Positions 12,501 to 42,695 of a stretch of 64,000 bases of DNA are shown in pieces. The position numbers and the translations under genes were made by a program. The first letter of the stretch is position 1. Each line of letters opens with the position of its first letter. Origin of the DNA: a virus. The stretch spans positions 1 through 64,000 of the IMG/VR virus record IMGVR_UViG_3300044643_002965; one strand, written 5' to 3'. The notes under the pieces are model-generated. The model was not told the origin of the DNA. It saw only the letters and a program-made list of their open reading frames with translations, and did not search any database.

Positions 12501-13190
12501 ATGCAATACGACCCCCAGATCGCTGTAGAAGGCAACTTCACTCCAGAAGAAACTCTGGCTTATCAACTCACTTGTCATTGGGTTGAATTAAGACACAAGA
12601 TATTTCCAAACTACAGACACCAAAAGATTAGTGGTAGAAAAGGAGATATTAGAAAAACATATTTGTTTAAGAATATTTTAAAGTTTGTAAGAGATAAAAA
12701 TAAAACCTTTAAAGGATTTCAATTTGTTTTATACATGAGAGCACAGCTTGAGATTCTTAAAAAAATACAAAATGATGGCCACCAAGTGGTAGTTGAAGCT
12801 AATTGTCTTCATGGAGAACAATCTGAAAAAAGATGGATGCTATGGAAGAAAAAAGTAGCTGTTGAAAACGCCACAACAAAAATTGAATATCATGTTGTTG
12901 AAAGCAATATTGAAATGGAATTAGATAAAACAAAAAAAACAATTTTATCAATACTAGGAAGTGATGTAACAAAAGAAAAATATATAAACTCAAGTCTTGA
13001 TATTTTAAAATTTGTTATATTGAAAAAAATAAGTCCTTTGTATATTTTGGTTTCAAAGTGGATAAAAATAATAAAACCAGAACTTCTTCAAGATATAAAA
13101 GATCTATCAAATACTAAAAAATATGATGACTATAACTTAGAAAAAGTACAAACTGTTTATAATAAAATGTTTGATTTTGAGTCTGCTTAG
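12501..13190 (+). CDS. Hypothetical protein, 229 aa
   Basis: Unrecognised, mainly helical and Lys-rich; no membrane segment. The N-terminus (YDPQIAVEGNFTPEETLAYQ) is less basic than the rest, and a middle part contains Trp/Lys-rich helices (EKRWMLWKKKVA). No clear ribosome binding site precedes the ATG at 12501. It follows directly on the hairpin-rich region, so that region might be its 5' leader. Its stop interlocks with the stop of the convergent gene at 13187 (TTAG). Confidence 0.6.
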   Translation: MQYDPQIAVEGNFTPEETLAYQLTCHWVELRHKIFPNYRHQKISGRKGDIRKTYLFKNILKFVRDKNKTFKGFQFVLYMRAQLEILKKIQNDGHQVVVEANCLHGEQSEKRWMLWKKKVAVENATTKIEYHVVESNIEMELDKTKKTILSILGSDVTKEKYINSSLDILKFVILKKISPLYILVSKWIKIIKPELLQDIKDLSNTKKYDDYNLEKVQTVYNKMFDFESA

Positions 13191-14017
13191 TAAGTTGAGA
13201 ATGCATTTCTTATTGTTTCTACAATTTCTTTATTGGGTTGAGATGGAGAATAATATTCATCCCACTCGCTTGGTTGAAGTTTCCACAATCTTTGTTTAGT
13301 AGGAGATAATATATCATTTCCCCAACATCTTATTAATCCTTTTTCTGGGTAATATGCCAAATTGATATTAAATTGTTCTGCTCTATTAGCACTTGGAGAT
13401 TCAACACCGTTTCCAGTAAATGAAAAATATATTGTGTAATTATTTTCATTATTTTCAATTGTTCCATTATAAATCATAACAGCCGGATGTCTAGCTCTTA
13501 CTTCAGAAGCTATGTCTAAAGTTAATTTTCTTAATCCAGTATATTTTGCATTTGGAGATTCTAATGGTGTTTTGTCTACAGATTCAAGATAGCTATTTAC
13601 ATTAACAGCAATTCTAAGTTCTTCTTCGATATCCATATCTCCTATATGATTGTAATCATTAATTAAAGGAAGTATATTCTTGCAAATGGCAACACTTTCA
13701 CCAGTTAAATCAGTTATTTCTCTTCTTATTATTATTTTCAAAGATCCAAAAGGAGAAACTTCTACAGTATAATTTCCTACTGGATTTATAGTTTCGCCAT
13801 AAACAACTTTGCTTTCAAATTTTCTAGAAGGTTTCTTATTTCCTATTTTTCCCAAATTAACAAGTTCGGTTAAAATTCCTGAAATTTTTAGTGGTTCCAG
13901 AGGTTCTTCTTCATATAAACTGGTAGTTGCTTTATGTGTTTTGGCATTTGATGGAAAACCAAATAAAGCTGCTGGGCTCGTTCCTAGCCATTCCTTAAAA
14001 TAAAGCTGTTTAAACAT
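13187..14017 (-). CDS. Putative internal head protein with capsid-targeting-like N-terminus
   Basis: I do not recognise the 276-aa body, which is mixed alpha/beta with a long strand-rich part (TVEVSPFGSLKIIIRR, YTIYFSFTGNG). The N-terminus MFKQLYFKEWLG fits the [F/Y]-x-[E/K]-[F/W]-[L/I] pattern shared with six other genes here and with T4 internal proteins (MKTYQEFI). I choose ATG at 14017 rather than 14032: a late-type octamer GATAAATA ends five bases before it, so the longer start would lie upstream of the transcript. It diverges from the 14031 gene, which has the same N-terminal pattern. Confidence 0.6.
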   Translation of the reverse strand: MFKQLYFKEWLGTSPAALFGFPSNAKTHKATTSLYEEEPLEPLKISGILTELVNLGKIGNKKPSRKFESKVVYGETINPVGNYTVEVSPFGSLKIIIRREITDLTGESVAICKNILPLINDYNHIGDMDIEEELRIAVNVNSYLESVDKTPLESPNAKYTGLRKLTLDIASEVRARHPAVMIYNGTIENNENNYTIYFSFTGNGVESPSANRAEQFNINLAYYPEKGLIRCWGNDILSPTKQRLWKLQPSEWDEYYSPSQPNKEIVETIRNAFSTY

Positions 14018-14030
14018 AAATATATTTATC
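14015..14030. promoter_or_regulatory. Back-to-back late-type promoters
   Basis: CATAAATA on the plus strand (14015-14022) abuts GATAAATA on the minus strand (14030-14023), giving a 16-base near-palindrome between two divergent genes. NATAAATA is the late promoter core used by gp55 sigma factors of T4-like phages; a gp55-like gene is at 33091. The start codons lie five (minus) and eight (plus) bases beyond the octamers, so both messages would begin at or very near the start codon. Confidence 0.6.
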
Positions 14031-14309
14031 ATGACTAGCTTTAAAATTTGGTTAGAAGAAAAAGATTACAAGCAAGCAAAGAAATCTTTGTTGGATTTAA
14101 TCCAACCTAAAATGAATATATCAAATAAAGATTTTAATTCAAAGCAATTAAAAGATTTTGATGAAAAGACTATAAAAATGATTGAAGAAATCATAAAAAG
14201 CAATTTTATGTATGACAAATTAGATGATTCTAAAAAAGATGAAATAGATATTTGCATAACATCTAAAAATTGTACTTTGTCTAATTTAGCAAGAAGTTTG
14301 GAAAATTAA
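14031..14309 (+). CDS. Putative small internal head protein, 92 aa
   Basis: A Lys-rich helical protein beginning MTSFKIWLEEKDY, the same pattern as T4 internal proteins, with a possible prohead-protease site at LEE near residue 10. The rest (KQAKKSLLDLIQPKMNI...) is unrecognised. Expressed from the late-type octamer at 14015-14022. Its stop interlocks with that of uvsW (TTAA at 14306-14309). Confidence 0.6.
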   Translation: MTSFKIWLEEKDYKQAKKSLLDLIQPKMNISNKDFNSKQLKDFDEKTIKMIEEIIKSNFMYDKLDDSKKDEIDICITSKNCTLSNLARSLEN

Positions 14310-15718
14310 TCTAAAACTTCAACATCATGACCCTCATCTTTTAGAATTTTAATTCTTTTTTTGCTATGCTTATACAAATAAGGATTAATATCAAATACAA
14401 AATCATGGTAGTTTAATATATTTTTATCATCTGCTGTTCTTAATCCTCTGCCCATTCTTTGAATAATAAGATGTTCTGCTTGCCCCCCGGCAGCATTGAC
14501 GAGGTTGTGAACAAATACGTTAATTCCTGTATTAAATATACCATGAGTAGCTATAGCTACACAATTTTCTGATTTTTGAAGTTTATCAATAACTTCTTTC
14601 CTGGTTTCATTGTTGTCCTCGCCTTTTACCCAATGAGCATGAGGCATTAAATTTTTCAATACATCACCATGAGCAATTCTCTCTACAAGGATAAGACTGC
14701 GACCTTTCATGTTCATTACTAATTCGACTACTTTTTGGTGAAAAATATCGTTTTCTACCAAGCCTTTTGTAACAGCATCGATATAAATTTCATAGTCAAG
14801 AGCTGGCTCTTTTATTGTGTGAAAATAGCACTTGCTTTTAGATAGTCTTCCTCTACTCTGTAGTTCTTTTGTCTTTAGAACCCCTCCTTCAGCAGATTGT
14901 ATTTTGAATACGGGTCCAAAAAACCCCTTAACATAAAATTTTTGTATCTTATCTTTTTCTCCGTGTTTAAACGGAGTTGCGCTAACTGCAATTCTAACAG
15001 AGCAATTTTTTAGTTTTCTGTAGATGTTTTTAGGTCCAGCGCTCATCATATCATGAATTTCATCAACTAGAAGAACTTCGGTATCTGCTAAAATATGTTC
15101 TGCTTTTTCAATTGATTGAACAGTTGATACGGTAAATATATTTGGTTCATTATAGCCTTGCCATATTCTTCCTACATTTTTCAACCCCCATTTTACATAT
15201 TCATCGTAATTTTGTGCAGCAAGTGTTTTTCTATTTTGCAATATAAGAGTTTTTGTATTTGGCGGTAAAGATTTTAGTATCGAAAGCATTGTTAGTGACT
15301 TCCCAGAACTTGTGGGAGCAAATATAATACCTCTTTTGTTTTTAATTGATTGATTAACTAATTCGACTTGATAATTTTCAAGTGTTATAACTTTTTCTTC
15401 TTTAGGAGTAAAAGGTTTTAAAAAGTCTTTGTCTATTTCCTTTATAGCGAAATCAATTTTTGTTCTATTGTCTTTGTAAGTTGGGTGCTCTCCAAAATGC
15501 TTGCAAGCGCCAATTACTTCTGGAAGTAAACCGCTTAAAAACTTGCCATTGTTTTTATTAAAAAAGTTTGTAAAGCCATCCCAAAGTTTTGCTTTGTATC
15601 TTGGGTTATGAAAATAAGATATGTCACGGAAACGAAGTTGCTCAAACAAGAACTTCAATAAATCTTGATTTTCTGTTTGCAAAATACTTATATCATTGTT
15701 TACAGTAATGTGCGCCAT
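14306..15718 (-). CDS. uvsW: UvsW helicase (superfamily 2)
   Basis: The 470-aa protein is a SF2 helicase that unwinds branched DNA and R-loops in T4. Motifs: APTSSGKS (Walker A, 134-141), VDEIHD (219-222, DEIH form of Walker B), VSATPF (motif III, about 245), and IIQRMGRGLR (motif VI, about 425). The N-terminal ~100 residues form a small domain seen in UvsW (WDGFTNFFNKNNGKF, LLPEV). Length is near T4 UvsW (~500 aa). ATG follows AGGAG. It is downstream of the Dda-like gene, ten bases apart. Confidence 0.9.
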   Translation of the reverse strand: MAHITVNNDISILQTENQDLLKFLFEQLRFRDISYFHNPRYKAKLWDGFTNFFNKNNGKFLSGLLPEVIGACKHFGEHPTYKDNRTKIDFAIKEIDKDFLKPFTPKEEKVITLENYQVELVNQSIKNKRGIIFAPTSSGKSLTMLSILKSLPPNTKTLILQNRKTLAAQNYDEYVKWGLKNVGRIWQGYNEPNIFTVSTVQSIEKAEHILADTEVLLVDEIHDMMSAGPKNIYRKLKNCSVRIAVSATPFKHGEKDKIQKFYVKGFFGPVFKIQSAEGGVLKTKELQSRGRLSKSKCYFHTIKEPALDYEIYIDAVTKGLVENDIFHQKVVELVMNMKGRSLILVERIAHGDVLKNLMPHAHWVKGEDNNETRKEVIDKLQKSENCVAIATHGIFNTGINVFVHNLVNAAGGQAEHLIIQRMGRGLRTADDKNILNYHDFVFDINPYLYKHSKKRIKILKDEGHDVEVLD

Positions 15719-15727
15719 TTTTTCTCC

Positions 15728-16783
15728 TCATACAGCCCATATTATACCCTCTCTTGCTCTAGATGCAGCAGTATAAGCCCATCTTTTGTGGTCCCATATG
15801 CTGCTTTTTTCTTCTAAAACAAGAATTTTATTCCATTCATCGCCTTGGCTTTTGTGGCAAGTTATACAAAAAGCATAATCAAAATATCCTTGTTCGCTAT
15901 CTCTATTAGCCGATTCAAGAAGTTTTTCGACTCCAAATTGGTTGGAGTCCACTAAAATATCAAACTTCTTGCCAAGATCATTTCTAAATATGAGTCTTCT
16001 GCCACGAATGGATTCAACAACTACTTGCATACCGTTGAATATACCAAGATTCCTGTTGTTTTTCAAGCAGATAATTTTCTCACCTGGATTTATTTTGTCT
16101 TCAAATTTATATTGTTTTCTCATAAAATTGTTAATAGAAAGTCTGGTCTTATTGTAAGCACAAATTATTTGATCAGAATTCTTCATTTCATCAACTGCAA
16201 TACTTCCTTTTTTCTTAATAATAACAGTATTGTCTGGAGATTCGTATTTAACGGCTTCTCCACCTTTTCTAAGGTAATCTGCAAACTTTGCAATATTGTT
16301 GGCATTTCGATGAATTGTCTCCAGTTTTATATCTGGATTTTTCATCAAATTAAAATCAGTTCCTATTGGCTCTAGCTGTCCATGATCTCCAATAAATATA
16401 ATTGGAAGACTATACCATAATAAGTTATCGAATATTTCTTCAGAAACCATACTTGATTCATCAACTATGAAACCGCCACAACCGATGTTATTTTTTCTTT
16501 TTAATGTAAAAACTGGATCATTATTTTCATCAGTTTTTACATCGTAAATAGTAGAATGTATTGTTTCTGCTGTGTAAACTCCTTTTCTTTTCAACACATT
16601 GCAAGCCTTGCCTGTGTATGCACATATTGCAAAGCTAGGGAAAAATTTAGCTATTTCTTTTAAACATGTACTTTTTCCAGTGCCAGCATATCCTCCCATG
16701 CTGATAAATTTTGATTTCTTATAATTTTCACGGATGAAAAGTATAGCGTTTTTTTGTTCTTCCGTTAATTCTATAGAAGACAT
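15728..16783 (-). CDS. dda: Dda-like 5'-3' DNA helicase (SF1B)
   Basis: The 351-aa protein has the RecD/Dda motor: GYAGTGKS (Walker A, 31-38), YTGKA (motif Ia, 56-60), VDESS (motif II, 107-111), GDHGQLEPIG (motif III), AYNKTR (motif IV) and FCITCHKSQGDEW plus YTAASRAREG (motifs V and VI) at the end. T4 Dda (439 aa) drives fork progression and template switching; here the protein is shorter, so the 'pin' and 'hook' insertions may be reduced. ATG is preceded by AAAGGAA. Confidence 0.88.
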   Translation of the reverse strand: MSSIELTEEQKNAILFIRENYKKSKFISMGGYAGTGKSTCLKEIAKFFPSFAICAYTGKACNVLKRKGVYTAETIHSTIYDVKTDENNDPVFTLKRKNNIGCGGFIVDESSMVSEEIFDNLLWYSLPIIFIGDHGQLEPIGTDFNLMKNPDIKLETIHRNANNIAKFADYLRKGGEAVKYESPDNTVIIKKKGSIAVDEMKNSDQIICAYNKTRLSINNFMRKQYKFEDKINPGEKIICLKNNRNLGIFNGMQVVVESIRGRRLIFRNDLGKKFDILVDSNQFGVEKLLESANRDSEQGYFDYAFCITCHKSQGDEWNKILVLEEKSSIWDHKRWAYTAASRAREGIIWAV

Positions 16784-16867
16784 GTAGGGTTCCTTTTGCT
16801 ACCAAAAGTACGAAATTCCATTTCCGTTTGCCATAAATACCTTTGTCGCTTTACCGAAGAGGATTTT

Positions 16868-17047
16868 ATGTCGAACGAAAAAATTGCCGAAGCGGTTAAG
16901 ATTCTAGGGATACTAGAAAAAAAATTCCAGCGCATTGAGGACAGCCAAAATTTATTACATGAAAAAATTAATAAAACAATTGAAAAAACTATAGAAATAA
17001 TAAGTTATAAAGAAAATGAAGAAAATGAAAATTTAATTATTTGTTAA
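16868..17047 (+). CDS. Small coiled-coil protein, 59 aa
   Basis: A short helical protein (MSNEKIAEAVKILGILEKKF...) with heptad-like hydrophobics and an acidic tail. The start at 16868 is set by GAAGAGGA a few bases upstream; the open frame extends back to 16796 without a site. Function unknown. Its stop interlocks with the convergent gene at 17044 (TTAA). Confidence 0.55.
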   Translation: MSNEKIAEAVKILGILEKKFQRIEDSQNLLHEKINKTIEKTIEIISYKENEENENLIIC

Positions 17048-17487
17048 TCTGTTTTTCCACGGTCTTTTACTTGAAGATAAAAACTATAGCTGTTTCTATT
17101 TCCTTTGGCAAAACTCTTTGGTGACTGTCTATATGAAACAACTAACTTTTCATTTGGGTTTTCAAAAGTTAAAAAGTCTTTTAGTCTTGATAAAACGCTC
17201 GTTATAAATTCTTTACTACCAGTAATTCTTATGCCATCTTCCTGAATTGTTGTTCCTTTGTGATCGGAAGGTATTGGTTTTAATGAGAGTGGCAAATTAC
17301 CAGCAATACTTTTCCAAAATCTTACAATTTCATCCTTTCCAGCCTTCCAAGGTTTTATTTTTGGCATTAAAGGCAAGGCTTTTTTAGTATCTGCTTCTGG
17401 ACTTACAGGTTCAACATTTTGTGGAACAGTTTGTTGTGTTGGCAAAACTTCTTCTGATATTTTTAGCCATTCATTGTAGTTTATCAT
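17044..17487 (-). CDS. Putative internal head protein, 147 aa
   Basis: Begins MINYNEWLKISEEVLP, fitting the T4 internal-protein pattern, with ISE at residues 10-12 as a candidate prohead-protease site (consensus [I/L]-x-E). A Pro/Gln/Glu-rich linker (residues 14-40) leads to an unrecognised ~100-residue domain (PWKAGKDEIVRFWKSIAG... to a beta-rich, Ser/Tyr-containing end). Preceded by an AATAAATA octamer six bases before the ATG. Diverges from the 17520 gene. Confidence 0.6.
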   Translation of the reverse strand: MINYNEWLKISEEVLPTQQTVPQNVEPVSPEADTKKALPLMPKIKPWKAGKDEIVRFWKSIAGNLPLSLKPIPSDHKGTTIQEDGIRITGSKEFITSVLSRLKDFLTFENPNEKLVVSYRQSPKSFAKGNRNSYSFYLQVKDRGKTD

Positions 17488-17493
17488 ATAAAT

Positions 17494-17515
17494 TATTTAT
17501 TGTTAAACATAAATA
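17494..17515. promoter_or_regulatory. Divergent late-type promoter pair
   Basis: AATAAATA on the minus strand (17501-17494) and CATAAATA on the plus strand (17508-17515) serve the two flanking genes. The minus ATG is six bases and the plus GTG four bases beyond the octamers, leaving no room for a ribosome binding site. Same design as at 14015-14030. Confidence 0.55.
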
Positions 17516-17519
17516 AAAT

Positions 17520-17843
17520 GTGATTACATTTAGAGAATTTATTCAACATGCGATATTAGAAGCGGATGCCGCTGGTGCTGCACCAGCGGGCGGAGCCGCA
17601 GGGTCTTCTCCTTCTGCCGGTGGCGCAGCACCAGTTGGTGGTGACTTAGGTGGTTTAGGTGGTGCTGGTGCTGCCCCGGCAGGAGGCGATATTGGAGGCG
17701 CAGGCGGCGGTGCCGATTTAGGCGGAGGCCTTGGAGGCGGATTGGGAGGAGCTACAGCATCTGTTCCAGCACCCAAAATAAAAGTTTTTAATGTGTGGCA
17801 AATGTTAAAAGATGAAAAAGACGAAGCTGAAGGAAAAAAATAA
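17520..17843 (+). CDS. Gly/Ala-rich putative internal head protein, 107 aa
   Basis: Starts with GTG: MITFREFIQHAILEADAAGA is nearly the T4 IPIII pattern (MKTYQEFIAEAS), and AILE-A at residues 11-15 is a textbook-like prohead-protease site. The middle is low complexity, almost only Gly, Ala, Pro and Asp, and the C-terminus is a short helix with a Lys/Glu end (NVWQMLKDEKDEAEGKK). The GTG is chosen because the ATG two bases earlier runs straight into TGA. An antisense Pro-rich frame is a shadow of this composition. Confidence 0.65.
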   Translation: MITFREFIQHAILEADAAGAAPAGGAAGSSPSAGGAAPVGGDLGGLGGAGAAPAGGDIGGAGGGADLGGGLGGGLGGATASVPAPKIKVFNVWQMLKDEKDEAEGKK

Positions 17844-17879
17844 CCTGAAAAAGAAGTCTAAGCCATCCTGAATATCTAG

Positions 17880-17907
17880 TTGTTTCTTTTTGCCGAAACC
17901 CTATAAT
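17880..17907 (+). promoter_or_regulatory. sigma70-like promoter of the gp47 gene
   Basis: TTGTTT (17880-17885), 16-base spacer, perfect TATAAT (17902-17907). The expected transcript start falls around 17914, so the second ATG at 17915, not the first at 17909, would be used, on an almost leaderless message. Confidence 0.45.
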
Positions 17908-17914
17908 CATGGGC

Positions 17915-20996: not shown

Positions 20997-21003
20997 ATTT
21001 CGT

Positions 21004-21086: not shown

Positions 21087-22073
21087 ATGTCTTCTAAAAG
21101 AAATATATTTGAAAAAAGAGTAGCTTTCAAACCTTTTGAATACCCAGAAGTTACAGAATACAAAAACGCAATATCTCATAGCTATTGGCTTGTTAGCGAA
21201 TGGAACTTTATAGGTGATATTCAAGATTTCAATGTAAAATTAAACGATGTAGAAAAAAGCATTCTCAAGAATGCAATGCTTGCAATTTCCCAAATTGAAA
21301 TAAGCGTTAAGAAATTCTGGACTAAACTTGGCGAAAGGTTTCCAAAAGCTGAATTCGATCAAGTTGGTGTAACATTTGGTGAATCAGAAGTAAGGCATTC
21401 AGATGCATATTCTCATCTCCTAGAAGTTCTAGGAATGAATAATGAATTTGATCAACTATTACAAAATCCTGTTATTCAAGGTAGAGTTGATTACTTGACA
21501 AAATATTTGAAAGGCGCTTCTGATAATAGCGATGAAAATTATACTTTAACTTTAACTTTGTTTAGCATATTCATAGAAAATGTTAGTCTATTCTCTCAGT
21601 TTTTAGTTATAAAATCTTTTAACAAGTATATGAATTGTTTAAAAGATATTGATAATGTTGTTCAAGCGACTCAAAAAGAAGAGCAGATACATGCTCTTCT
21701 TGGTGTTTATTTAATAAAGACTATTCAAAAAGAATTTCCCGATTGGTTCAATGAAGACTTTTATAACAAACTGTATAGAGCTTGCAAAAAGGCATATGAA
21801 GCCGAAGCGAAAATTATTGATTGGATTTTCGAAGCTGGAGAACTTTCTTTCTTGTCAAAAGAAAATGTAAAAGAATATATCAAGCAAAGGTTTAATGAAA
21901 GCCTTGAAATGGTAGGAGGCAAAAAGGTTTTTGATGTTGATCCAGATAAGGTATCTGAGTTAAAATGGTTTGAAGATGAAATACATGCCGAAGTGAACAC
22001 AGACTTCTTCCATAAGAAGCCTGTGACATATTCCAAAAATGTAAAGCCAACAACAGCAGAGGACTTATTCTAA
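21087..22073 (+). CDS. nrdB: Ribonucleotide reductase beta subunit (NrdB)
   Basis: The 328-aa protein carries the di-iron/tyrosyl radical centre. Ligand motifs seen: SEWNFIGDIQDF near residue 35, GESEVRHSDAYSHLLE near 100-115 (E and H ligands), and EEQIHALLG near 200 (E..H). The C-terminal tail ends in an acidic/hydrophobic stretch (TTAEDLF) as expected for docking to NrdA. The start at 21087 follows CGGAGGAATA; the frame is open further back but without a site and across the promoter. The TAA overlaps the nrdA ATG by one base. Confidence 0.92.
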   Translation: MSSKRNIFEKRVAFKPFEYPEVTEYKNAISHSYWLVSEWNFIGDIQDFNVKLNDVEKSILKNAMLAISQIEISVKKFWTKLGERFPKAEFDQVGVTFGESEVRHSDAYSHLLEVLGMNNEFDQLLQNPVIQGRVDYLTKYLKGASDNSDENYTLTLTLFSIFIENVSLFSQFLVIKSFNKYMNCLKDIDNVVQATQKEEQIHALLGVYLIKTIQKEFPDWFNEDFYNKLYRACKKAYEAEAKIIDWIFEAGELSFLSKENVKEYIKQRFNESLEMVGGKKVFDVDPDKVSELKWFEDEIHAEVNTDFFHKKPVTYSKNVKPTTAEDLF

Positions 22074-24664
22074 TGAACAGCAACTACAGATGGCTTACTG
22101 AAATGTCTCAAGTGTTCCTTGAGAGAGACTATTTGGTCGATGGTCAAACTGTCGATCAAAGAGTTGATGAGATTTGTAATACTGCCGAAAAGCTGCTTAA
22201 CAAACCGGGATTTGCTGCCAAGTTTAAAGAAAACTTTCAAAAGGGTTGGTACAGCCTATCAACTCCTATTTGGACAAACTTTGGCAATGAAAGAGGATTG
22301 CCCATTAGTTGCTTTGGCAGCACTATAGGTGATTCTATGGAATCTATTGCATATACTTGGGCAGAAGTAGCAATGATGACCAAATATGGTGGAGGAACCT
22401 CTGCTACATTTGGAAACTTAAGACCTAGAGGAGCATCTATCAGAAACAACGGAGAAAGCTCTGGTGCTGTTCACTTTATGCAAGCGTTTGAAAACCTAAT
22501 TCAAATTGTTAGCCAAGGCAGTTGTTATATAGAAGGAACTGAAGTATTAACAAATAATGGATTTAAAGATTTTAGAGAAGTTTTGCCAACTGATAAATTG
22601 GCGCAGCTTGACGAATTTAATAATGTTTCATTTACTGAAAAATATGAAATGGTTGTAAATGATTTTGAAGGAAATTTAATTTGTCTTTCTGGCAAAAAGA
22701 CTGAAAATTCTGTTTCCATCAAGGTGACTCCTAACCATCGCATGGTTATTTGCCGCAGAAAAATGCAAGACAGGGAGCGTTATTGGCCATCCAATACTGA
22801 AATTGTAGAAGCACAGGATTTAAATCTCCATAGAGACAATAGAATTCCATTAGCTGGTTGGGCTGGCAAAGGAGATGGTCTAAGCAATTTTGATAGACTT
22901 AGGATTGCATATCAAGCGGATGGAAGAAAAGATGACGCAAATAGAAAAATTCGTTTTCATTTTGCTAAAGAAAGAAAGGTTCAACGCTTAGAAAAAATCC
23001 TAAACGATATTGGAATTAAATACGAAAAGAAAACCAATCCAGATAAAACAATTAGTATTAATTTTGAATATGAAGAATCTGTCAAAAAGAAAACATTTTC
23101 TGAATGGGTAAGAATTGAAGAAATAAATGGAATTTGGGCTCAAGAATTTATTGAGGAACTATCTTGTTGGGATGGAAGTGTATCTCATGGAGGATGCATT
23201 ACATATTCAAGCATAGATAAAACAAATATAGATATTGTTCAAGCAATTGCTGCATTGGCTGATTTAAAAACCAGAGTTAGAATTCGCCCTGCCTACGGCA
23301 ACAGGCGTGATTTGCATTGTATAAATATAAGCGAAAACTCCTACAGAGGGGGCGAGTCAATTAATAAAACTGAAGAATATTACAAAGGAAAAGTTTATTG
23401 TGCTATAGTACCAGAGGGTAGGCTTTTAGTTAGATATCAAGACAGAGTGATGGTGTGTGGAAACACTCGTCGTGGTAACTTCGCTGCTTATCTTCCTATT
23501 GACCATGCCGACATTATGGAATTCCTTCAGATAAGAACTGAAGGATTCCCAATTCAAGATCTTTCATTCGGAGTCTGTGTTCCAGACTATTGGATGGAAG
23601 AAATGATTAATGGAGATGCAGACAAAAGAAAGGTGTGGGCTAAAGTTCTCGAAATGAGAGCCAACTTTGGCTATCCATATATTTCATTTATTGACAATGC
23701 AAATAATAATACAGCAGATTGCTATAAAGATAAAGAATTAAAAATTACACATAGCAATCTATGTCAGGAAATTTTTTTGCCAGACAATGAATACGAATCA
23801 TTTGTCTGTGATTTAAGTAGTATGAATATTCTTTATTATGATGAATGGAAAGACACAGATGCCGTAGAGCTTCTTGTCTATCTTCTTGATGCTGTGATGA
23901 CAGAATTCATTGAAAAAGCCAAGAAGATTAAGTTTATGGAAAGGGCTGTTAAATTTGCCGAAAGGCATCGTGCTCTTGGTGTTGGCTGGCTTGGCTGGCA
24001 TAGCTACTTACAAAGCAAGATGATTCCTTGGGAGAGTATGGAAGCCAAGTTCCATAATACTCAAATTGCAAAAAACATCAAGGAAGCTGCATATAAAGCC
24101 AGTGCAAAGCTAGCAGAAGAATATGGTGAGCCAGAAGTATGCAAAGGATATGGCAGAAGAAACACTACTCTTCTTGCTATAGCCCCTACAAAATCTTCGG
24201 CGTTTATTTTAGGACAGGTTTCCGAAGGTATTGAACCTCATAGAACCAACTATTACATTAAGGATCTGCAAAAGGGTAAATTTACAATCAAGAATGCAGA
24301 GCTTGAGAAGCTTTTGAAAGCGAAGGGACATGATACTGAAGAAGTATGGAAGAGCATTCTTATGAATGGCGGAAGCGTCCAGCATTTGGAATGTCTTACC
24401 GAAGAAGAGAAGAATGTATTCAAAACTTTTGCCGAAATTAGTCCTAAAGAGATTATGATTCAGGCAGCACAAAGACAGAAGTATATTGATCAAGGTCAAA
24501 GTCTTAACCTTATGATTCATCCTTCTGTTCCTACTAAAGATGTTAATGCTTTGATTATTGAAGGCTGGAAAATGGGCATCAAGGGTCTTTATTACCAGAT
24601 ATCCGTTAATGCCGCCCAGGCTTTTTCAAGATCAATTCTGACTTGTACAAGTTGCGAGAGCTAA
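22073..24664 (+). CDS. nrdA: Ribonucleotide reductase alpha subunit (NrdA) with intein
   Basis: The 863-aa precursor is a 549-aa reductase interrupted by an intein (residues 151-464). The reductase part has the catalytic Cys in GLPISCFGS (residue 80), the radical-site motif SNLCQEI with a nearby DLSSMN, APTKSSAFILGQVSEGIEP in the substrate/phosphate-binding barrel, and the C-terminal redox pair TCTSCES. It lacks an N-terminal ATP-cone, so the usual dATP shut-off is probably missing. The intein sits at a conserved loop, before TRRGNFA. After splicing NrdA would pair with NrdB from the preceding gene. Confidence 0.93.
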   Translation: MNSNYRWLTEMSQVFLERDYLVDGQTVDQRVDEICNTAEKLLNKPGFAAKFKENFQKGWYSLSTPIWTNFGNERGLPISCFGSTIGDSMESIAYTWAEVAMMTKYGGGTSATFGNLRPRGASIRNNGESSGAVHFMQAFENLIQIVSQGSCYIEGTEVLTNNGFKDFREVLPTDKLAQLDEFNNVSFTEKYEMVVNDFEGNLICLSGKKTENSVSIKVTPNHRMVICRRKMQDRERYWPSNTEIVEAQDLNLHRDNRIPLAGWAGKGDGLSNFDRLRIAYQADGRKDDANRKIRFHFAKERKVQRLEKILNDIGIKYEKKTNPDKTISINFEYEESVKKKTFSEWVRIEEINGIWAQEFIEELSCWDGSVSHGGCITYSSIDKTNIDIVQAIAALADLKTRVRIRPAYGNRRDLHCINISENSYRGGESINKTEEYYKGKVYCAIVPEGRLLVRYQDRVMVCGNTRRGNFAAYLPIDHADIMEFLQIRTEGFPIQDLSFGVCVPDYWMEEMINGDADKRKVWAKVLEMRANFGYPYISFIDNANNNTADCYKDKELKITHSNLCQEIFLPDNEYESFVCDLSSMNILYYDEWKDTDAVELLVYLLDAVMTEFIEKAKKIKFMERAVKFAERHRALGVGWLGWHSYLQSKMIPWESMEAKFHNTQIAKNIKEAAYKASAKLAEEYGEPEVCKGYGRRNTTLLAIAPTKSSAFILGQVSEGIEPHRTNYYIKDLQKGKFTIKNAELEKLLKAKGHDTEEVWKSILMNGGSVQHLECLTEEEKNVFKTFAEISPKEIMIQAAQRQKYIDQGQSLNLMIHPSVPTKDVNALIIEGWKMGIKGLYYQISVNAAQAFSRSILTCTSCES
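22523..23464 (+). mobile_element. Intein in NrdA, LAGLIDADG type
   Basis: A 314-aa intein from Cys151 to Asn464. Block A is CYIEGTEVLTNNGF, block B SIKVTPNHRMVI (the T..H), and the C-terminal blocks are VYCAIVPEGRLLVRYQ and VMVCGN followed by Thr. The residue before the terminal Asn is Gly instead of the common His, a known but less efficient variant. The middle holds two motifs like those of LAGLIDADG endonucleases, LRIAYQADGR and FIEELSCWDGS, both with their Asp, so homing activity may be intact. Confidence 0.88.
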
Positions 24665-26675: not shown

Positions 26676-27197
26676 ATGTACAATGAAATGTTAAATTTCA
26701 AAAAATTTATAATATTAGAAAATCTCCAACTATTAGGAGATAAAATTGGTAATTTGTTAAAAGATTTACAAGAATTGCAAGAAAATTATAAAGATATTGG
26801 AATGACAACAACTTGCAATACAATTGAAACAATTATTTCCAATATACAATCTATACTTAGAGGTCATTGGGACTCTAGTAATAAAAAATATTTTAAAAAT
26901 CTTCAAAAAGTAGGAATTGCATTATCTAAGCTGCTAGAAGAAAAAGATGATTTTGAAAAAGTTCTTTCCGATTCTGTTGAAGAAATCAAAAGTATAGCGA
27001 TGAAATTGAATGTTCCTTTGAATGATTTGGGAACTTCTGGAAAAGAATCTCAAACAAGTCAAACTCCTGATTCTGGAAATACCGAAAAACAACCTGTTGA
27101 TATAAATCCACAGGCTCAACCTATATCTGGATTTGATACATCTGGTGCTCCTCCTCTTGGAGAGCCATCTGAAATTCAAAATCCCAACGCTATTTAA
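26676..27197 (+). CDS. Putative internal head protein, 173 aa
   Basis: Starts MYNEMLNFKKFIILEN: after four residues comes MLNFKKFI, the T4 internal-protein pattern, and ILE is a candidate prohead-protease site. A helical core (LGDKIGNLLKDLQELQENYKD) is followed from about residue 115 by a Gln/Pro/Ser/Thr-rich disordered tail. AAAGAG precedes the ATG. Sits between pyrG and the amidotransferase, 10 and 5 bases away. Confidence 0.55.
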   Translation: MYNEMLNFKKFIILENLQLLGDKIGNLLKDLQELQENYKDIGMTTTCNTIETIISNIQSILRGHWDSSNKKYFKNLQKVGIALSKLLEEKDDFEKVLSDSVEEIKSIAMKLNVPLNDLGTSGKESQTSQTPDSGNTEKQPVDINPQAQPISGFDTSGAPPLGEPSEIQNPNAI

Positions 27198-34543: not shown

Positions 34544-34577
34544 GTACTCCTGCACATTATTTAATGTGCAGGAGTAC
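34544..34577 (-). terminator. Perfect 15-bp hairpin between tail tube genes
   Basis: GTACTCCTGCACATT, loop ATTT, and its exact complement. On the minus strand only three T follow, so it may attenuate rather than stop transcription, or protect the 3' end of the upstream tube mRNA. Confidence 0.6.
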
Positions 34578-34600
34578 AAATTTTAAAAATAAATTAATTA

Positions 34601-35266
34601 TTAGATTCTTCCGCCATTTAGACCGGCTGGAGCATTGAGACCAGCAGGAAGATCTGCGCCGCAAGTAGAACCAAAGCAAGGGGCTGGCTGCGCTCCGCAG
34701 AAGTTCTGCCATTTGGCGAACTGATAACGAACAGTCAACTCAATTGTTGCTTCATCTTGTGTTGCATAATCTAGGTCACCAAAGTTAACTGATTGTGGCC
34801 AGCAGTCGTACAATGTCCAAGCTTCTAGGGCAAGTCCACCACCATCAAGCATGGTTAGAACGCCTCTGCCGCCGTAATGGGCTCTAGCACCAACATCATA
34901 TGCTCTTGCGTTCATACGAGGATTGGTAATGCCGCCAGTTGGACTTAAAAAGTCATAGACGTTTGCAATCCAGCTATATAATGGCACCAAGGGAGATGTT
35001 TGATCATTTGTAACATCATAGTATGTTACTGTAATGGATTCAAATGTTGCCTTGCCAGGAATATACATTTTGCCATGTAGGAAGTTGATTTCTGTTTCTT
35101 CGAAAGAAATATTAGGACGAGCAGCAGATTTCACGAATGATTCTGGAACTCTACTAATTCCTCCAGCAGAACAAATATCTTCTACGCTGAAAAGCCATCT
35201 AAATTTTCTCTTAAACATGATGCCTGTGGAGTTACCCAAGGCTCCGATACCCATATTATAAGACAT
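34601..35266 (-). CDS. 19: Tail tube protein (gp19-type), paralogue 1
   Basis: 221 aa: MSYNMGIGALGNSTGIMFKRKFRWLFSV, AARPNISFEETEI, YIPGKATFESITVTYYD, WPQSVNFGDLDYATQDEATIELTVRYQFA: the beta-sheet core of T4 gp19 family tube subunits. A Cys/Ala/Gly/Pro C-terminal tail (about 25 residues) is extra. It follows the sheath gene in the usual 18-19 order. ATG preceded by AGGAGATAA. Confidence 0.85.
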   Translation of the reverse strand: MSYNMGIGALGNSTGIMFKRKFRWLFSVEDICSAGGISRVPESFVKSAARPNISFEETEINFLHGKMYIPGKATFESITVTYYDVTNDQTSPLVPLYSWIANVYDFLSPTGGITNPRMNARAYDVGARAHYGGRGVLTMLDGGGLALEAWTLYDCWPQSVNFGDLDYATQDEATIELTVRYQFAKWQNFCGAQPAPCFGSTCGADLPAGLNAPAGLNGGRI

Positions 35267-35285
35267 GTTTATCTCCTATCTAAAA

Positions 35286-37763: not shown

Positions 37764-37989
37764 GTTTTTCTCCTGTTCTCAATATATTACTATCTACAAA
37801 TCTAGTTTTAATATAACCAGATTGCTCTGCTCTATTTATATATTCAGTTGCTCTCTCTTCTTCTAAATAAAAAATATTTTTTTCTGCACCAATTCCAGGT
37901 ATTGTTAGTGATGTTCCGTGTCCGGGGGCTCTTTTTGATCTGATAAACAAAGAAATTGGTGTCTGTTGCAAGTTTGTAATTTCAATCAT
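37750..37989 (-). CDS. Small virion-region protein, 79 aa
   Basis: Unrecognised; starts MIEITNLQQTPISLFI and looks like a small beta-rich protein with a basic helix. Its ends overlap both the gp15-like gene (8 bases) and the sheath gene (14 bases), so it is part of the tail operon; a head-tail joining or tail-assembly role is possible. Confidence 0.6.
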   Translation of the reverse strand: MIEITNLQQTPISLFIRSKRAPGHGTSLTIPGIGAEKNIFYLEEERATEYINRAEQSGYIKTRFVDSNILRTGEKHGNT

Positions 37990-38980
37990 TTTTAAATTCC
38001 CTTGTGCTTTCTTCTATTCTACTTATTATTTCGCTTATTTCATTATCTATTGCTGAATTGCCAATCTCAACTCTAGTTTCCAATATTGCCTTCTCACGTC
38101 TAATGGGTTGTGCAACGTAAGTTTCAGCAGTTAAACCAAATTGAAATTTGATAACTCGCAAAGCTTGATCTCCAGGCTCTGTTTCTAAGTTATTAGCTAT
38201 AGAATTCATCTTTACGCCAGTTTCCCAAGTTACTCCCCTTACTTTTATATACGCCATAGGACTAAATTTAGTTACTATTTGTTCAATAATTTGATTCATA
38301 TCTTCTAATTGCATTGTCCATGCAATTAAATTATAACTAATATCAATTGGTATACCTCTAGCAACTCCAAAAACAGTATCTTTATTATATTTTTCTGATA
38401 CTGTAAAAGTTGGTTTTCCTTGAGTATCTGGTGCCCAGTTTAGAGCTTTGTGATAAGTATATCTTTCTTGATTAAAAGTAAAGTCTGTGCTGCTTATTGC
38501 AAGCATTGGTAATTTTATTCTATCTACAACTAGTGTATCGTCTTTTCTTACATTTTCTTGAACCACAGCGGCAACGGCTCTTTCTTGTGTGGCCCAAATA
38601 ACAGGAACTGGGTGTGCCTTTCCATCGTCATCAATTACAACTATGTTTCTAAATAAATCCATTACAGCTTCATCTGTTCCACGAATAGATTTTGCATAAC
38701 GATAAATTGTATTTCTATTTGGAACATTTAAATCATTTACAATTTGTCCCCGTTGAAATGGGTCCGCATTATTTTCTTGCCCATTTCCAGTTTTATTTAT
38801 AAATAAATCTTGCATCCAGTCATCTGGATTGTTTAAACCAACGTTGTTTTGATTATCGGGTGGCTGATCACAAAACCCTGGTGGCGGATCAATATTTTCA
38901 GAACGACTTTGGAAATCCAAGTCTTTTATGTCGTTTAAAGAACCACCATAACTATTAACATTTGGGCCAATAGGCTTCAT
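37982..38980 (-). CDS. 15: gp15-like tail completion / sheath-stabilising protein
   Basis: The 332-aa product has, after a disordered Asn/Pro-rich N-terminus of ~100 residues, NIVVIDDDGKAHPVPVIWAT, DRIKLPMLAISSTDFTFNQER and RVIKFQFGLTAETYVAQP. This order, a 'VPVxWxxxER' strand then a 'LPxxxI' stretch, is that of T4 gp15-like connector proteins that cap the tail and meet the neck. It lies directly before the sheath gene, as gp15 relatives often do. Assignment by pattern and place. Confidence 0.6.
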   Translation of the reverse strand: MKPIGPNVNSYGGSLNDIKDLDFQSRSENIDPPPGFCDQPPDNQNNVGLNNPDDWMQDLFINKTGNGQENNADPFQRGQIVNDLNVPNRNTIYRYAKSIRGTDEAVMDLFRNIVVIDDDGKAHPVPVIWATQERAVAAVVQENVRKDDTLVVDRIKLPMLAISSTDFTFNQERYTYHKALNWAPDTQGKPTFTVSEKYNKDTVFGVARGIPIDISYNLIAWTMQLEDMNQIIEQIVTKFSPMAYIKVRGVTWETGVKMNSIANNLETEPGDQALRVIKFQFGLTAETYVAQPIRREKAILETRVEIGNSAIDNEISEIISRIEESTREFKND

Positions 38981-39116
38981 TTTTTGCCTTCGATTTTTTT
39001 AACTGACTTCTTATTAATTGTAATCAATTCAGGAAAACTTCTTCTTATTAAAAATTCTTTGAAAGTAATATACGTTAATATACTAAGCTTTTGTTCCATA
39101 AAATATATATGAAAAA

Positions 39117-39145
39117 ACATGCAGAGATTAATTGTCTCTGCATGT
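39117..39145 (-). terminator. Intrinsic terminator
   Basis: ACATGCAGAGA paired with TCTCTGCATGT around a seven-base loop, followed on the minus strand by six T. Ends the leftward unit whose last gene stops at 39167. Confidence 0.85.
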
Positions 39146-39166
39146 TTATTTTAAATAAAAATTAAA

Positions 39167-39862
39167 TTATTTTTTTTTGCGGTTTTTTCGAGCTTTGAGA
39201 AAATATGATTCTGTTGCCATTCCACCTGGCATAGGCATTTGTGGCATACCTCCTGCTGCACCCATATCATTACCGCCAGCGCCACCTCCTCCAAACGATG
39301 GCACAGCTTGGTCACCCATAGGAGGTCCTTCTTCTCCCATAGCACCTAAAGATGGGGCAGCTCCCTCTTCTCCTTCCACACCTTCTTCTCCAACTTCGCC
39401 TTCCGCTTTTTCAATATTCTTCTTAATCATTTTAAGAAGATCATTGATAGTGTCAGCTCTTGCAGAAGCATCTTCTCCCTTACTTCTCAAGAAATCTAAT
39501 TGTGCTTCGATATCGCTAACAGCTTTTTGCATTACAGCTTCTGGCCCTTCGGCATCTTCGCCAACGCTGGCATCAACATTTTCTTCGCCTTCAGCTTCTG
39601 GAGGACCCATGCCCCCTTCTTCTTGGTCTGCTGTTTTTGGACCTTCATCCATAAATCCTTGTGGTGACATTCCACCACCAGTAGGCATTCCACCACCAGC
39701 AGGCATGCTTCCCATTCCACCCAAGGAAGGAGCAGAAGGCATTCCGCCTCCTGTTTGTCCAGCCATAGGAGGCATAGACATGCTTGGATTTACAGGCATG
39801 CCACCTTGTTCAAATAGTTTGTTAGCCTGTATCCTTCTATAAAATTCATAAAAATTTTTCAT
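39167..39862 (-). CDS. Gly/Met/Pro-rich putative internal head protein, 231 aa
   Basis: Starts MKNFYEFYRRIQANKLFEQGG: the same [F/Y]-x-E-[F/W] pattern as T4 internal proteins, with LFE as a possible cleavage site. The rest alternates Gly/Met/Pro/Ala-rich disordered stretches with a central acidic helix (QKAVSDIEAQLDFLRSKGEDA). The end is basic (KARKNRKKK). Could be an internal head protein or scaffold. AGGTGAA precedes the ATG. Confidence 0.6.
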   Translation of the reverse strand: MKNFYEFYRRIQANKLFEQGGMPVNPSMSMPPMAGQTGGGMPSAPSLGGMGSMPAGGGMPTGGGMSPQGFMDEGPKTADQEEGGMGPPEAEGEENVDASVGEDAEGPEAVMQKAVSDIEAQLDFLRSKGEDASARADTINDLLKMIKKNIEKAEGEVGEEGVEGEEGAAPSLGAMGEEGPPMGDQAVPSFGGGGAGGNDMGAAGGMPQMPMPGGMATESYFLKARKNRKKK

Positions 39863-39873
39863 TTTTTCACCTT

Positions 39874-40407
39874 TTAAACAATTTTAAAATCAACATTTTG
39901 GTTTTTACCAACCGAGGTTCCACTAACATCATCTTCTTGGAACCTCTGACATATGAGTTGCAATCTAACAACTCCATACATCTTGAATTCTCCTGTCTTT
40001 CTCTCTATTATAACCCAATTCTCTTTTAAAAATGGAGTAAATATCCTTGAGCCAATTTTTGGAGCATGGCCAACAGTATTCAAAACACTTTTATAATTCA
40101 ATTCAAATATCATTTCGTCTGGAGAATCAATACCAAATGCAGTTTGCATGTTCTGGGAAGGAACAGGCTCGTAAACAGCCCACAACTGCACAGGAACAGG
40201 ACTAAACATTTTAGTTCTAGTTTCCAAGTATATCGGATCTACATTATTTGTGTCTATAAATAATTCATAATAAAAAATTGGAGAGCCACCTTGTTTGATA
40301 GACTCTTGGTCCCAGTCATTAAATAAACTATGCTCTGGCAACCCATCATCGAATTGTTGCATTGATCCAGTTGGGCAATATGGCTTGCCATCATTTCTGT
40401 AAATCAA
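39874..40407 (-). CDS. Neck protein, possibly gp14-like
   Basis: 177 aa. Features reminiscent of T4 gp14: an acidic start with SLFNDWDQESIKQGG, FYYELFIDTNNVDPIYLETRT, a mid FGIDSPDEMIFELNY strand, and PKIGSRIFTPFLKENWVI ('P..GD.iy.P.....w.I'). Its place between a head-type gene and the tail operon fits a neck/completion role. Called tentatively. Confidence 0.45.
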   Translation of the reverse strand: MIYRNDGKPYCPTGSMQQFDDGLPEHSLFNDWDQESIKQGGSPIFYYELFIDTNNVDPIYLETRTKMFSPVPVQLWAVYEPVPSQNMQTAFGIDSPDEMIFELNYKSVLNTVGHAPKIGSRIFTPFLKENWVIIERKTGEFKMYGVVRLQLICQRFQEDDVSGTSVGKNQNVDFKIV

Positions 40408-42695
40408 ATTTTTCTCCTTGGATATTCGTCCTCATCCTCTCCAGTTCGATCAATTATGCGTCCTCCCATTATATCTTTAACTTCTGCATCGACTTGATAT
40501 GGATTTTCATCCTCATCTTGGTCTATCTGTTGATATTCAGGATTATTATTTTTATCATGGTCTATAATAAATGACATTAATTCTTTAATAATATATTGAA
40601 TAGCAGGTTTTGCATTAATTCCATATTCTGATGATACTTTAGTTGAAATATTTTGATCTATCAGAAGCTCTCTAAGGAAAATGCTTAAAGTACTTGGGTT
40701 AATAAACTTTTGTACTTCTTGCTTTTGTTTGATTGGATCTTTTTCTTTTAAAACTCTTTTGTAGTACCTGTCAACAATAAGTTTTTCTAGTCTGTCAATT
40801 ATCTTGTTTAAAGACTCTTGATCGTCAGCAGATAGTCCCCCAGAGAGCTTAAAAGCTACAGCTTTATGATGCTCTGGATCATGTTGATGTGTAAATCCAG
40901 TATCTTTTCTCTTAATAGCTAACTTTCCGCATTGTTCAATTGGAGGCGCTTCTTTACCTTGTCTTTTAGCATCCCATACATGGAATGCATGAAAAATTAC
41001 ATTCTTTAAATTGTCCATGTAAAAAGCGATAGATGTAGAATCTGGCCACATACTTGTAATCCAAATTTTGTCTGATAAATTTATAATCTTTTCATGATCT
41101 GTATCACCATTAATACAAAACTTACTACCAGAATCACATGCTTCTTTTAATAATATAAAATCATCAAATCCAAAAGATTCAACAAGCATGTCTTTTGTAA
41201 TATTAGATGGAAGCATTGATAAAGCATCTGCTGAGTTTACTTTATCATATGCGTTATAACAAATAGATGCTGAAACTCTTAATAATTCTATTTCTGGATT
41301 TTTTACAAATGAATCATACAAATCATTTACATTTAATATTGATTTAACACTAGGTCTTTTTCCTGCTATAATATCAGGCATTTCTTTTTCAACAAAGTTT
41401 GTTAAATCACTTACAAAATTATTTGTATCTTTTTCAATTCTTTCCAACAAATATCTAAAACAAAATGCTGCTTTCAAAATTGCAAGCTTCGCACTTAAAG
41501 AAACTTTTGAACTTAAAATGTTTTTAGCGTTTTCAAGATAGACAAGAATACAACGCTTTAATGTCAATATTAGAGAATTAGATTTGTTGGTTATGGCCGC
41601 TTCAATTTGACCACTTATCGACATACCTGATTCTGGAGCATCGGGCCTATCTGGTTCGCTGGCATGAATTCTGTGCGGCCCGCCAATCTTTTCTCCCCCT
41701 TTGACAACGGATTCTCCGTCACCGCTCACATCAAGGTCTTCTCCTTCGTCACCAGTTGCAGTATTTGGTGTCGATTTTGCACCAACATAATAATTCTTAT
41801 TTCTCATGTTGCCAAGTGTAGACTGCCTGATGCAATTTACTAAAAAATTAAACAAAGTATAAATTAAATCTGATTTGCCAGCATAATGCCTAACAAATTC
41901 TGAAGCAATATATTCAACTCTGTTTTCTTGTGATCCAGCATCTTGAGGTTCAAATGAACTAGCTATTCCCAAAGCATTTTTTTGATCGTCTTTTATTCTT
42001 TGAAGTCCTGCTTCATAATCAGATTGACTTATTTCGTCATTTTTCATCTTGTTGGCAAGATTTTCTGCTTCTTTATTCAGCTCGCCAAATTTCATAGCAT
42101 ATTTTTCTCTTGATTGCTTGTCACGCAAAGCAATGTTTCTATGACCAAGAGACAAGTAAGATTTAAATCCCGTGCCTCCATAATTAATCAATTTGTCAAT
42201 AAATTCTTCATAAGTTCCAGATTTTATTCTTGTTATAAATTCGTGTAATGCAGTATGGGATAACTTTGAGGCACTAAAACTTCGCTCTTCTCTAGATTTG
42301 GCCAAACGAGCAGCACTCATTTTTACATTGGCCCTTTTTGCCTTTTGTGCAATCTCAGGCTTGTATTCTTCGCCTTTGTCTAGACCACCTTTTATTCCAT
42401 AAATGCAAGAACTTGTTGCATCGGTAAAAGCTTCAAAACTAACTTTTTCTAGATTCATGTAAGGTATGAGAAATTTAATAATAAAATTGTCATCTAATCC
42501 AGAAGCCTCGATACTATTCAAAGCTGCTTTTTGTTCATCAGTAATAAATCCATCAATGCTATTGGATTTTTCCAATAACATTTTTGCAAACTTTTTAATA
42601 GATGTATCAACTATAGTTCTGTACTTTTCATAACTGTCAGAACCCAATTGACTTGCTTCACTTACTAAAAGCCACTTAATAAAATTAGAATTCAT
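40404..42695 (-). CDS. Large putative internal virion protein, 763 aa
   Basis: I do not recognise the body, which is long, helical and Lys/Glu-rich. The start MNSNFIKWLLVSEASQLGS fits the internal-protein pattern, with VSE-A as a possible prohead-protease site. A Gly/Asp/Glu/Ser-rich patch lies near residues 310-350. Size and N-terminus would suit a protein packed in the capsid and injected, like T4 Alt, but no ADP-ribosyltransferase motif is seen. ATG follows AGAGGAACC. It overlaps the next gene (ATGA). Confidence 0.55.
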   Translation of the reverse strand: MNSNFIKWLLVSEASQLGSDSYEKYRTIVDTSIKKFAKMLLEKSNSIDGFITDEQKAALNSIEASGLDDNFIIKFLIPYMNLEKVSFEAFTDATSSCIYGIKGGLDKGEEYKPEIAQKAKRANVKMSAARLAKSREERSFSASKLSHTALHEFITRIKSGTYEEFIDKLINYGGTGFKSYLSLGHRNIALRDKQSREKYAMKFGELNKEAENLANKMKNDEISQSDYEAGLQRIKDDQKNALGIASSFEPQDAGSQENRVEYIASEFVRHYAGKSDLIYTLFNFLVNCIRQSTLGNMRNKNYYVGAKSTPNTATGDEGEDLDVSGDGESVVKGGEKIGGPHRIHASEPDRPDAPESGMSISGQIEAAITNKSNSLILTLKRCILVYLENAKNILSSKVSLSAKLAILKAAFCFRYLLERIEKDTNNFVSDLTNFVEKEMPDIIAGKRPSVKSILNVNDLYDSFVKNPEIELLRVSASICYNAYDKVNSADALSMLPSNITKDMLVESFGFDDFILLKEACDSGSKFCINGDTDHEKIINLSDKIWITSMWPDSTSIAFYMDNLKNVIFHAFHVWDAKRQGKEAPPIEQCGKLAIKRKDTGFTHQHDPEHHKAVAFKLSGGLSADDQESLNKIIDRLEKLIVDRYYKRVLKEKDPIKQKQEVQKFINPSTLSIFLRELLIDQNISTKVSSEYGINAKPAIQYIIKELMSFIIDHDKNNNPEYQQIDQDEDENPYQVDAEVKDIMGGRIIDRTGEDEDEYPRRKI

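Follow-up and report, generated by a model that had tools for sequence, protein, structure and literature searches.

Short N-terminal propeptides that direct proteins into the head are described for phage T4. In internal protein III (IPIII), residues 4 and 7 do most of the targeting, residues 8 and 10 govern processing, and nothing beyond the first 10 residues was required (PMC9026906). T4 propeptides are 10-20 residues long, and foreign proteins have been packed by means of them (PMC5694885); a review suggests that the tag may serve T4-like phages for packing various proteins (PMC9026906). Here we describe a family of genes in a 64,000-nucleotide stretch of viral DNA (the window, bases 1-64000 of the linear 132,223-base record IMGVR_UViG_3300044643_002965) whose unrelated products share an N-terminus of this kind. 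Judging from sequence, we consider it quite probable that the shared N-terminus is a T4-type capsid-targeting propeptide, carried on far more cargo than in T4.

The virus is a virus of bacteria, known only from environmental DNA. Its record contains recognisable T4-like myovirus genes for a tail sheath, two tail tubes, a sheath stabilizer, a baseplate-hub-type protein and a head-tail adaptor. Among the matches listed, the tail sheath is closest to that of Listeria phage LIS04 (37% identity over 59% of the length), and for one 24-kb part of the window the phage collection contains no close DNA-level match. In the mechanism that we propose, an aromatic residue at about position 4, with Trp or Phe three positions later and, in most cases, an aliphatic residue next, would dock the protein on the prohead core. 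A gp21-type (Peptidase_S77) protease would then cut a few residues on, after a hydrophobic residue-x-Glu site (phi-x-E), leaving the body in the head. The lineage would put this one tag on many unrelated bodies, about eight of them in the 132-kb record.

The original prediction was that seven genes begin with one pattern, M-x(2-5)-[F/Y]-x-[E/K/I]-[F/W]-[L/I/Y], and all seven N-termini are present in the sequence as claimed. Genes were called with a home-made caller, which gave 106 in the record. When every start codon within 40 codons of a called start was considered, the pattern occurred in exactly seven of the 106 genes, where the internal rate predicts 0.35 (Poisson p 9e-8); of 1161 in-frame start codons lying over 60 codons into a gene, one had it. 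Restricted to called starts, it was found in three of 106 genes (0.11 expected, p 2e-4), the caller's own start differing from the tag start in four of the seven (genes A, B, E and F below). The proposed size of the family, at least seven, also held, as an eighth tagged gene (gene H) lies outside the window at 125274-126092 of the record (plus strand). Its very acidic product begins MLNYEKWKLLNE, which contains the aromatic pair and not the full pattern.

Since the pattern was derived from genes of this record, it was tested unchanged on other genomes. Over the record and five relatives together, 16 of 886 starts matched, with 0.7 expected (relative G009 was omitted from this six-record count as a copy of G008). 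We also gathered 80 loci whose capsid protein resembles that of relative G005 (identity of 73% or more; 80 of 241 confirmed loci, G005 included). Here 25 of 629 non-redundant starts carried the unchanged pattern (0.47 expected, p 2e-34), and 58 carried a looser form, M-x(1-6)-[FY]-x-x-[FW]-[LIVYFM] (3.7 expected). The looser form was found four times in this record (0.9 expected), four times in G002 (0.9), four in G003 (0.8), nine in G008 (1.7), 10 in G005 (2.1) and 14 in G006 (2.6); in G011 and G012, relatives of 144 and 151 kb, it was found 13 and 16 times (1.6 and 1.5). Among control phages handled with the same caller, T4 gave 6 against 2.1 expected and KVP40 gave 7 against 3.4, while S-PM2 (3 against 1.5), Slicko01 (1 against 2.1), LIS04 (0 against 2.0) and SPO1 (1 against 1.6) showed no significant excess. 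Four of the six T4 matches are ipII and ipIII (by the record's annotation), gp61.1 and mrh.1.

The tag is conserved where the bodies have diverged. We tabulated 31 N-termini for families A-H, a selection from the relatives. The aromatic core [FY]xx[FW] is present in 31 of 31, and phi-x-E falls at residues 10-22 in 23 of them, all 23 among the 26 rows of families B-H. Relatives at 23-70% identity to the window proteins retain the tag. For A, B, C, E, F and G the tag was not a selection criterion, because relatives were found by sequence, with gene order also used for G and for F in G008. The relatives of D and H are weaker evidence, because they were partly chosen by the tag; the match of H to G003 has only E 1.0.

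Gene A (13187-14017, minus strand) encodes 276 residues from its tag-bearing start. Its frame is open from 14032, and the start at 14017 is favoured because the relative in G008 has no room for a longer one. The tag, MFKQLYFKEWL, occupies 13985-14017 (minus). Relatives occur at 35 IMG/VR loci, on contigs of up to 381 kb. With starts corrected, 33 of the 35 loci have the aromatic pair, and the other two, which represent one protein type, have Leu in place of the first aromatic. Automatic start choice found 25 of 30 non-redundant members tagged, and three of the five misses were internal starts. In an alignment of 31 sequences, whose members fall to 23% identity with the window protein, residues F7 and W10 are each invariant at 90% or more. 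The model predicted from these sequences (mean predicted local distance difference test score, pLDDT, 83) opens with a short N-terminal helix, followed by a stretch of low confidence and then a folded body; in gene A the tag is residues 1-11, the low-confidence stretch about 26-38, and the body starts at about 45. Foldseek found no match to this model at E 0.001, and the best VIA-align score (Z 8.7, to actin capping protein and Mediator) is one that the tool describes as common among unrelated models. Searched against PDB sequences, the family gave a best E of 0.32.

The divergent partner of A, gene B (14031-14309, plus strand), encodes 92 residues and opens with MTSFKIWLEE (14031-14060, plus), a tag and cut site with the exact T4 IPIII spacing. 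Its relatives are 44% identical in G002 and 29% in G008. A tagged divergent partner of gene A is present at 24 of 29 related loci by eye and at 25 of 29 by a lenient automatic rule; three of the partners accepted by the rule (L295, L301 and L310) look like chance, and two that it missed (L297 and L299, MFKVWL) look tagged.

Genes C and D form a second divergent pair, which recurs in G002. In the 147-residue product of gene C (17044-17487, minus strand), the tag and cut site are followed by a variable linker and by a conserved domain from residue 43. The tag and cut site are MINYNEWLKISE/E (17452-17487, minus; a slash marks the putative cut). Relatives are 73% and 63% identical, with one more in the giant record described below, and the structural model, built from four sequences, is poor (pLDDT 56). 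The layouts of A, as modelled, and of C are those that would be expected of a removable tag. Gene D (17520-17843, plus strand) has a GTG start and encodes a Gly/Ala/Pro-rich protein of 107 residues with tag and cut site MITFREFIQHAILE/A (17520-17561, plus).

Gene E (26676-27197, plus strand) directly follows a CTP synthase gene recognised by eye. It encodes 173 residues, or 169 from the internal Met at 26688, where the tag and cut site MLNFKKFIILE/N begin (26688-26720, plus). Relatives down to 26% identity fit F..[FY][ILV]..E, and a relative in G003, outside the table, has Tyr as the second aromatic. Pfam gave weak matches of gene E to coiled-coil-type families, the best at E 0.0006 and all below cut-off. 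None of the window's tagged bodies has a PHROG match at E 0.01 or a Pfam family above cut-off.

Families F and G are those in which the bodies hardly align and the tag and cut site stay. Gene F (39167-39862, minus strand) encodes a Gly/Met/Pro-rich protein of 231 residues that begins MKNFYEFYRRIQANKLFE/Q (39809-39862, minus). Relatives in G002, L010 and G008 keep MK[NS]FYEFY...LFEQ while the length spans 208 to about 1056 residues, with parts added at the C-terminus. The N-terminus in G008 is identical at 14 of 19 residues, and BLAST gave no further match at E 1e-3. Gene G (40404-42695, minus strand) encodes 763 residues beginning MNSNFIKWLLVSE/A (42657-42695, minus) and has gene-order counterparts in G002 (825 residues) and G008 (562 residues). 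The 763- and 825-residue proteins align at E 0.010 in a two-sequence comparison, and the 562-residue protein is not among the sequence matches; each of the three nevertheless opens with the tag and then [VI]SE[AS]S.

Three further genes were considered and not counted as tagged. The gene at 43811-44062 (MEYNYINFV) fits the loose form, but the tag is not kept in all its neighbours in relatives; the gene at 109778-110440 fits at an alternative start only; and the gene at 44071-46965 shows what may be a conserved LxEA around residue 35 and no clear tag. Flavobacterium phage immuto, considered as a tagged relative, was also set aside: its capsid protein is 42% identical over 68%, but 41 of its 52 annotated features, from one 48-kb stretch, yielded two loose aromatic pairs, neither convincing.

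Families A, C and E, searched in the phage collection together with F, each have exactly one match there, every time in LR756511.1, the 595,163-base record of an uncultured phage; family F has no match in that collection. All three relatives are tagged (A, MKSFASWFNEY; C, MLSFREWCEQ; E, MEFKKFLITEQ). A tagged gene again lies divergently beside the A relative, and the E relative again follows a CTP-synthase-like frame, recognised by eye. The LR756511 capsid protein is 68% identical to that of G005, and the record has two Peptidase_S77 matches. The loose tag occurs at 53 of its 1090 called starts (12.7 expected), about forty above chance.

Most of the seven genes had been said to carry a phi-x-E site behind the tag, and the site is indeed present in six; the exception, gene A, lacks one within 30 residues in this record. 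Counting gene H, a site of the cut type follows the tag in seven of the eight families, and other relatives of A show LSE, LLE or LNE. Among the 58 loosely tagged starts of the capsid-selected loci, [LIVM]xE ends 3, 4 and 5 residues after the F/W in 24, 10 and 17%, compared with 2.5, 1.9 and 6.7% of other starts, and no clear excess of [LIVM]xE is seen in these 58 beyond offset 5. Offset 3 is the T4 IPIII spacing. Because the loose pattern itself favours an aliphatic or aromatic residue at offset 1, which inflates the offset-3 figure, Glu alone is the fairer measure; it occupies offsets 3, 4 and 5 in 26, 16 and 29% of tagged and 7, 6 and 12% of other starts. The capsid proteins of the lineage have motifs of the same type: two recur among 43 distinct N-termini, LNEA close to the start and LLENQRL[IM]NE before the conserved core. 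By analogy with T4, we infer that these phi-N-E motifs would be cut sites.

Finding a prohead protease gene outside the window had been proposed as a check. None was found in the 132-kb record, nor was a capsid gene, and the protease was seen only in relatives. Peptidase_S77 was detected in 10 of 10 examined relatives with a full-length gp23-type capsid gene (G005, G010-G016, G023 and LR756511). It was found in 13 of 14 members of one record set, all but SPO1, and in G005 but none of eight records searched beside it. Of 15 contigs that carry gene A, only G023 (223 kb) has it, and G023 is also the only one of 17 records with a full-length capsid protein (phrog_138, E 8.8e-86). G006 (176 kb) and G021 gave partial capsid-like matches and no protease, and G026 (381 kb) matched neither. 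In the records examined, capsid gene and protease occur together or not at all, as expected for fragments.

The bodies that carry the tag in relatives are diverse, with domains of enzyme and of anti-restriction type among them. We put 69 of 119 non-redundant loosely tagged relative proteins to Pfam; those left out were mostly short, and some were chance-like or family repeats. Matches at E ≤0.001 comprised 24 families, several of them sharing a protein. They include AAA_33 kinase (two proteins), GNAT (two proteins), PolyA_pol, NUDIX, SNF2/DEAD helicase, tRNA-ligase phosphodiesterase, ArdC-N, an AAT-type N-terminal nucleophile (Ntn) hydrolase, a transglutaminase core, dioxygenase, DUF5872 and others. 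One pair of tagged proteins gave a PARP-like match at E 0.0011, below the family cut-off, and a tagged ADP-ribosyltransferase (ART)-like relative had no match in a PDB sequence search. Some of the 69 will be chance hits. As a separate observation, the AAT-type protein (L118:4752-5606, minus strand) starts MEFKEFLFNECVVAAVR, and the predicted cut after Glu would expose an N-terminal Cys. Ntn-type enzymes need Cys as the N-terminal residue; maturation and activation of this protein may be coupled.

Four of the tagged genes also have a promoter-like box. ATAAATA, which we take to resemble the T4 late-promoter box, occurs within 16 bases of the start and on the right strand for genes A-D. Two copies lie back to back at 14016-14029, one for B (14016-14022, plus) and one for A (14023-14029, minus); the others are at 17494-17500 (minus) for C and 17509-17515 (plus) for D. 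Overall the motif is not enriched in the window (40 copies, 32 expected). In LR756511 it precedes 12 of 85 aromatic-pair starts and 17 of 1005 others. A pool of eight relatives gave 14 of 193 against 49 of 2027 (p 0.0007), with LR756511 dominating. The most enriched 7-mer when all sets, partly overlapping, were pooled was ATAGATA (23 of 316 against 42 of 2533). We treat the promoter-box data as supporting evidence only.

We considered whether the tag marks parts of the prohead core instead of injected effectors. Such scaffold-like proteins would build the head, be cut, and then be expelled or kept as filler. Seven head regions examined (L085, L089, L100, L107, L114, L120 and L134) have a tagged or tag-like gene between portal-like and protease genes, on the opposite strand in five. 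The second aromatic of these tag-like starts is often Tyr, outside the counted pattern, and the portal was identified by family search only in G005 and elsewhere by position and size. T4 has gp67/68 between its portal and protease genes. Gene H is very acidic, as core proteins are, and F and G lie between neck and tail genes. In T4 the same protease cuts the core proteins gp67, gp68 and gp22 (PMC5694885). Against a core role for the whole family, genes A-E sit among replication and metabolic genes, and many tagged bodies in relatives are enzyme-like (GNAT, NUDIX, kinase, PolyA_pol, SNF2/DEAD helicase and ArdC-N) and therefore unlikely scaffold. We judge this explanation unlikely for the family as a whole, while a role in the head core or in assembly is possible for F, G and H. 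Genes A-E are candidates for injected proteins, at lower confidence.

An improbable alternative is that the motif is a docking helix for some other partner, such as the tail or baseplate, host RNA polymerase or a membrane, its likeness to T4 being convergent. F and G adjoin tail genes, several phages with Peptidase_S77 show no excess of the tag, Glu is enriched at offset 2 as well, and packaging is something that we infer from sequence. What speaks for a head-directed tag is the T4-like spacing of the aromatic pair and phi-x-E, the recovery of T4 internal proteins by the loose pattern, and the phi-N-E motifs of the capsid proteins. Chance or start-region bias (small Lys/Phe-rich N-termini or mis-called starts) is very improbable: the motif is short and the home-made caller's start differed for four of seven genes, but expected counts are about 5 to 50 times lower than those found, SPO1, LIS04, S-PM2 and Slicko01 show no significant excess with the same caller, and both aromatics are at least 90% invariant (31 sequences) and conserved at 23-58% body identity.

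The proposal that the family is targeted to the capsid is supported in part, as to the common T4-type tag on unrelated bodies, the cut-site type in seven of eight families, the retention of the tag in relatives and the gp21-type protease in 10 of 10 examined capsid-bearing relatives; in the virus's own, apparently incomplete record neither a protease nor a capsid gene was found. Several observations weigh against the proposal. A capsid protein, portal, scaffold and prohead protease akin to those of relatives were not found in the 132-kb record. Two large records with tagged genes, G006 and G026, have no protease, but they also have no full-length capsid gene. LIS04, S-PM2 and Slicko01 have no significant tag excess although Peptidase_S77 is present. 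Family A has phi-x-E at residues 10-22 in none of its five tabulated members. The Glu excess is as great at offset 2 (28 against 7%), and a phi-x-E cut would account for it only if the F/W could serve as its first residue. Among the loosely tagged proteins of G005, G006, G011 and G012, 1.5-2.6 in each are expected by chance. ATAAATA precedes two of seven called tagged starts in the record and eight of 97 others, which is not significant, and none of the aromatic-pair starts in G003, G005, G006, G011 and G012. No virion data for this lineage were found in the literature searched.

Because no capsid, portal, scaffold or protease gene was found, the head module probably lies outside the record, which looks incomplete. 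No contig extended it at the right end. At the left end one contig was found, with the searched pattern 369 bases from the contig end, so little was gained. From 53111 to the end of the window at 64000, and on to about 101880 of the record, runs a series of huge fibre-like proteins, partly poly-Thr and up to 3061 residues long. The contig ends in Thr-repeat-type sequence, which probably caused the assembly break.

Other genes of the record were noted in passing. A ribonucleotide reductase large subunit (22073-24664, plus strand) has an intein-like insert, with a weak LAGLIDADG_3 match, below cut-off, inside the barrel domain. The 585-residue protein encoded at 47979-49736 (plus) combines DUF7487 repeats with a Mom-like C-terminus (Pfam Mom, E 9e-07), possibly a DNA-modification gene fused to a repeat region. 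An acyl-carrier-like protein (PP-binding; 2266-2529, minus) lies near a putative amidoligase (Amidoligase_2; 1038-1946, minus), and a COOH.NH2 ligase is encoded at 126847-127770 of the record.

Under the capsid-targeting reading, the tagged proteins would be packaged, cleaved and injected, with putative roles in host take-over or anti-defence. We are evenly divided on a wider proposal, that a large, uncultured T4-like lineage uses the tag as its general signal for packing. The virion would inject ten to fifty tagged proteins (anti-restriction, ADP-ribosylation, acetylation, and RNA or nucleotide enzymes) that are freely swapped behind one propeptide, and the injected set could be read from the genome, up to the 595-kb giants. 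If this is true, a sequence rule lists candidate packed or injected proteins in phages never grown, and what large phages inject becomes testable protein by protein. The biology of the T4 tag is already published. Among the literature matches listed, which comprised titles and abstract beginnings from the open-access literature, none dealt with such a tag, or with its expansion, in T4-like phages that are huge or known from the environment; it may have been published elsewhere.

The closest known system is the tag of T4 IPII and IPIII, with which the tag described here shares an N-terminal stretch of 10-15 residues, an aromatic at 4, F/W at 7, an aliphatic at 8 and, in the exact cases, Glu at 10, together with unrelated bodies and a gp21-type protease, here in relatives. 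Unlike in T4, the second aromatic is mostly Trp in the relatives (by eye), the cargo families are many more, and the cut site often comes one or two residues later and is often phi-N/S/T-E. The likeness to T4 Alt and IPI, packed proteins of host take-over and anti-restriction, lies in the functional idea of head-packed enzymes or inhibitors delivered with the DNA; in relatives the tag is found on one ArdC-N and one PARP-like protein type, both of putative activity. Giant phages SPN3US and phiKZ pack many head proteins, their ejection or inner-body proteins, that are cut by the prohead protease (PMC5694885 and PMC13282480). Several of their propeptides exceed 100 residues and have AxE-type sites, whereas those described here, at 10-20 residues with phi-x-E, are nearer to T4.

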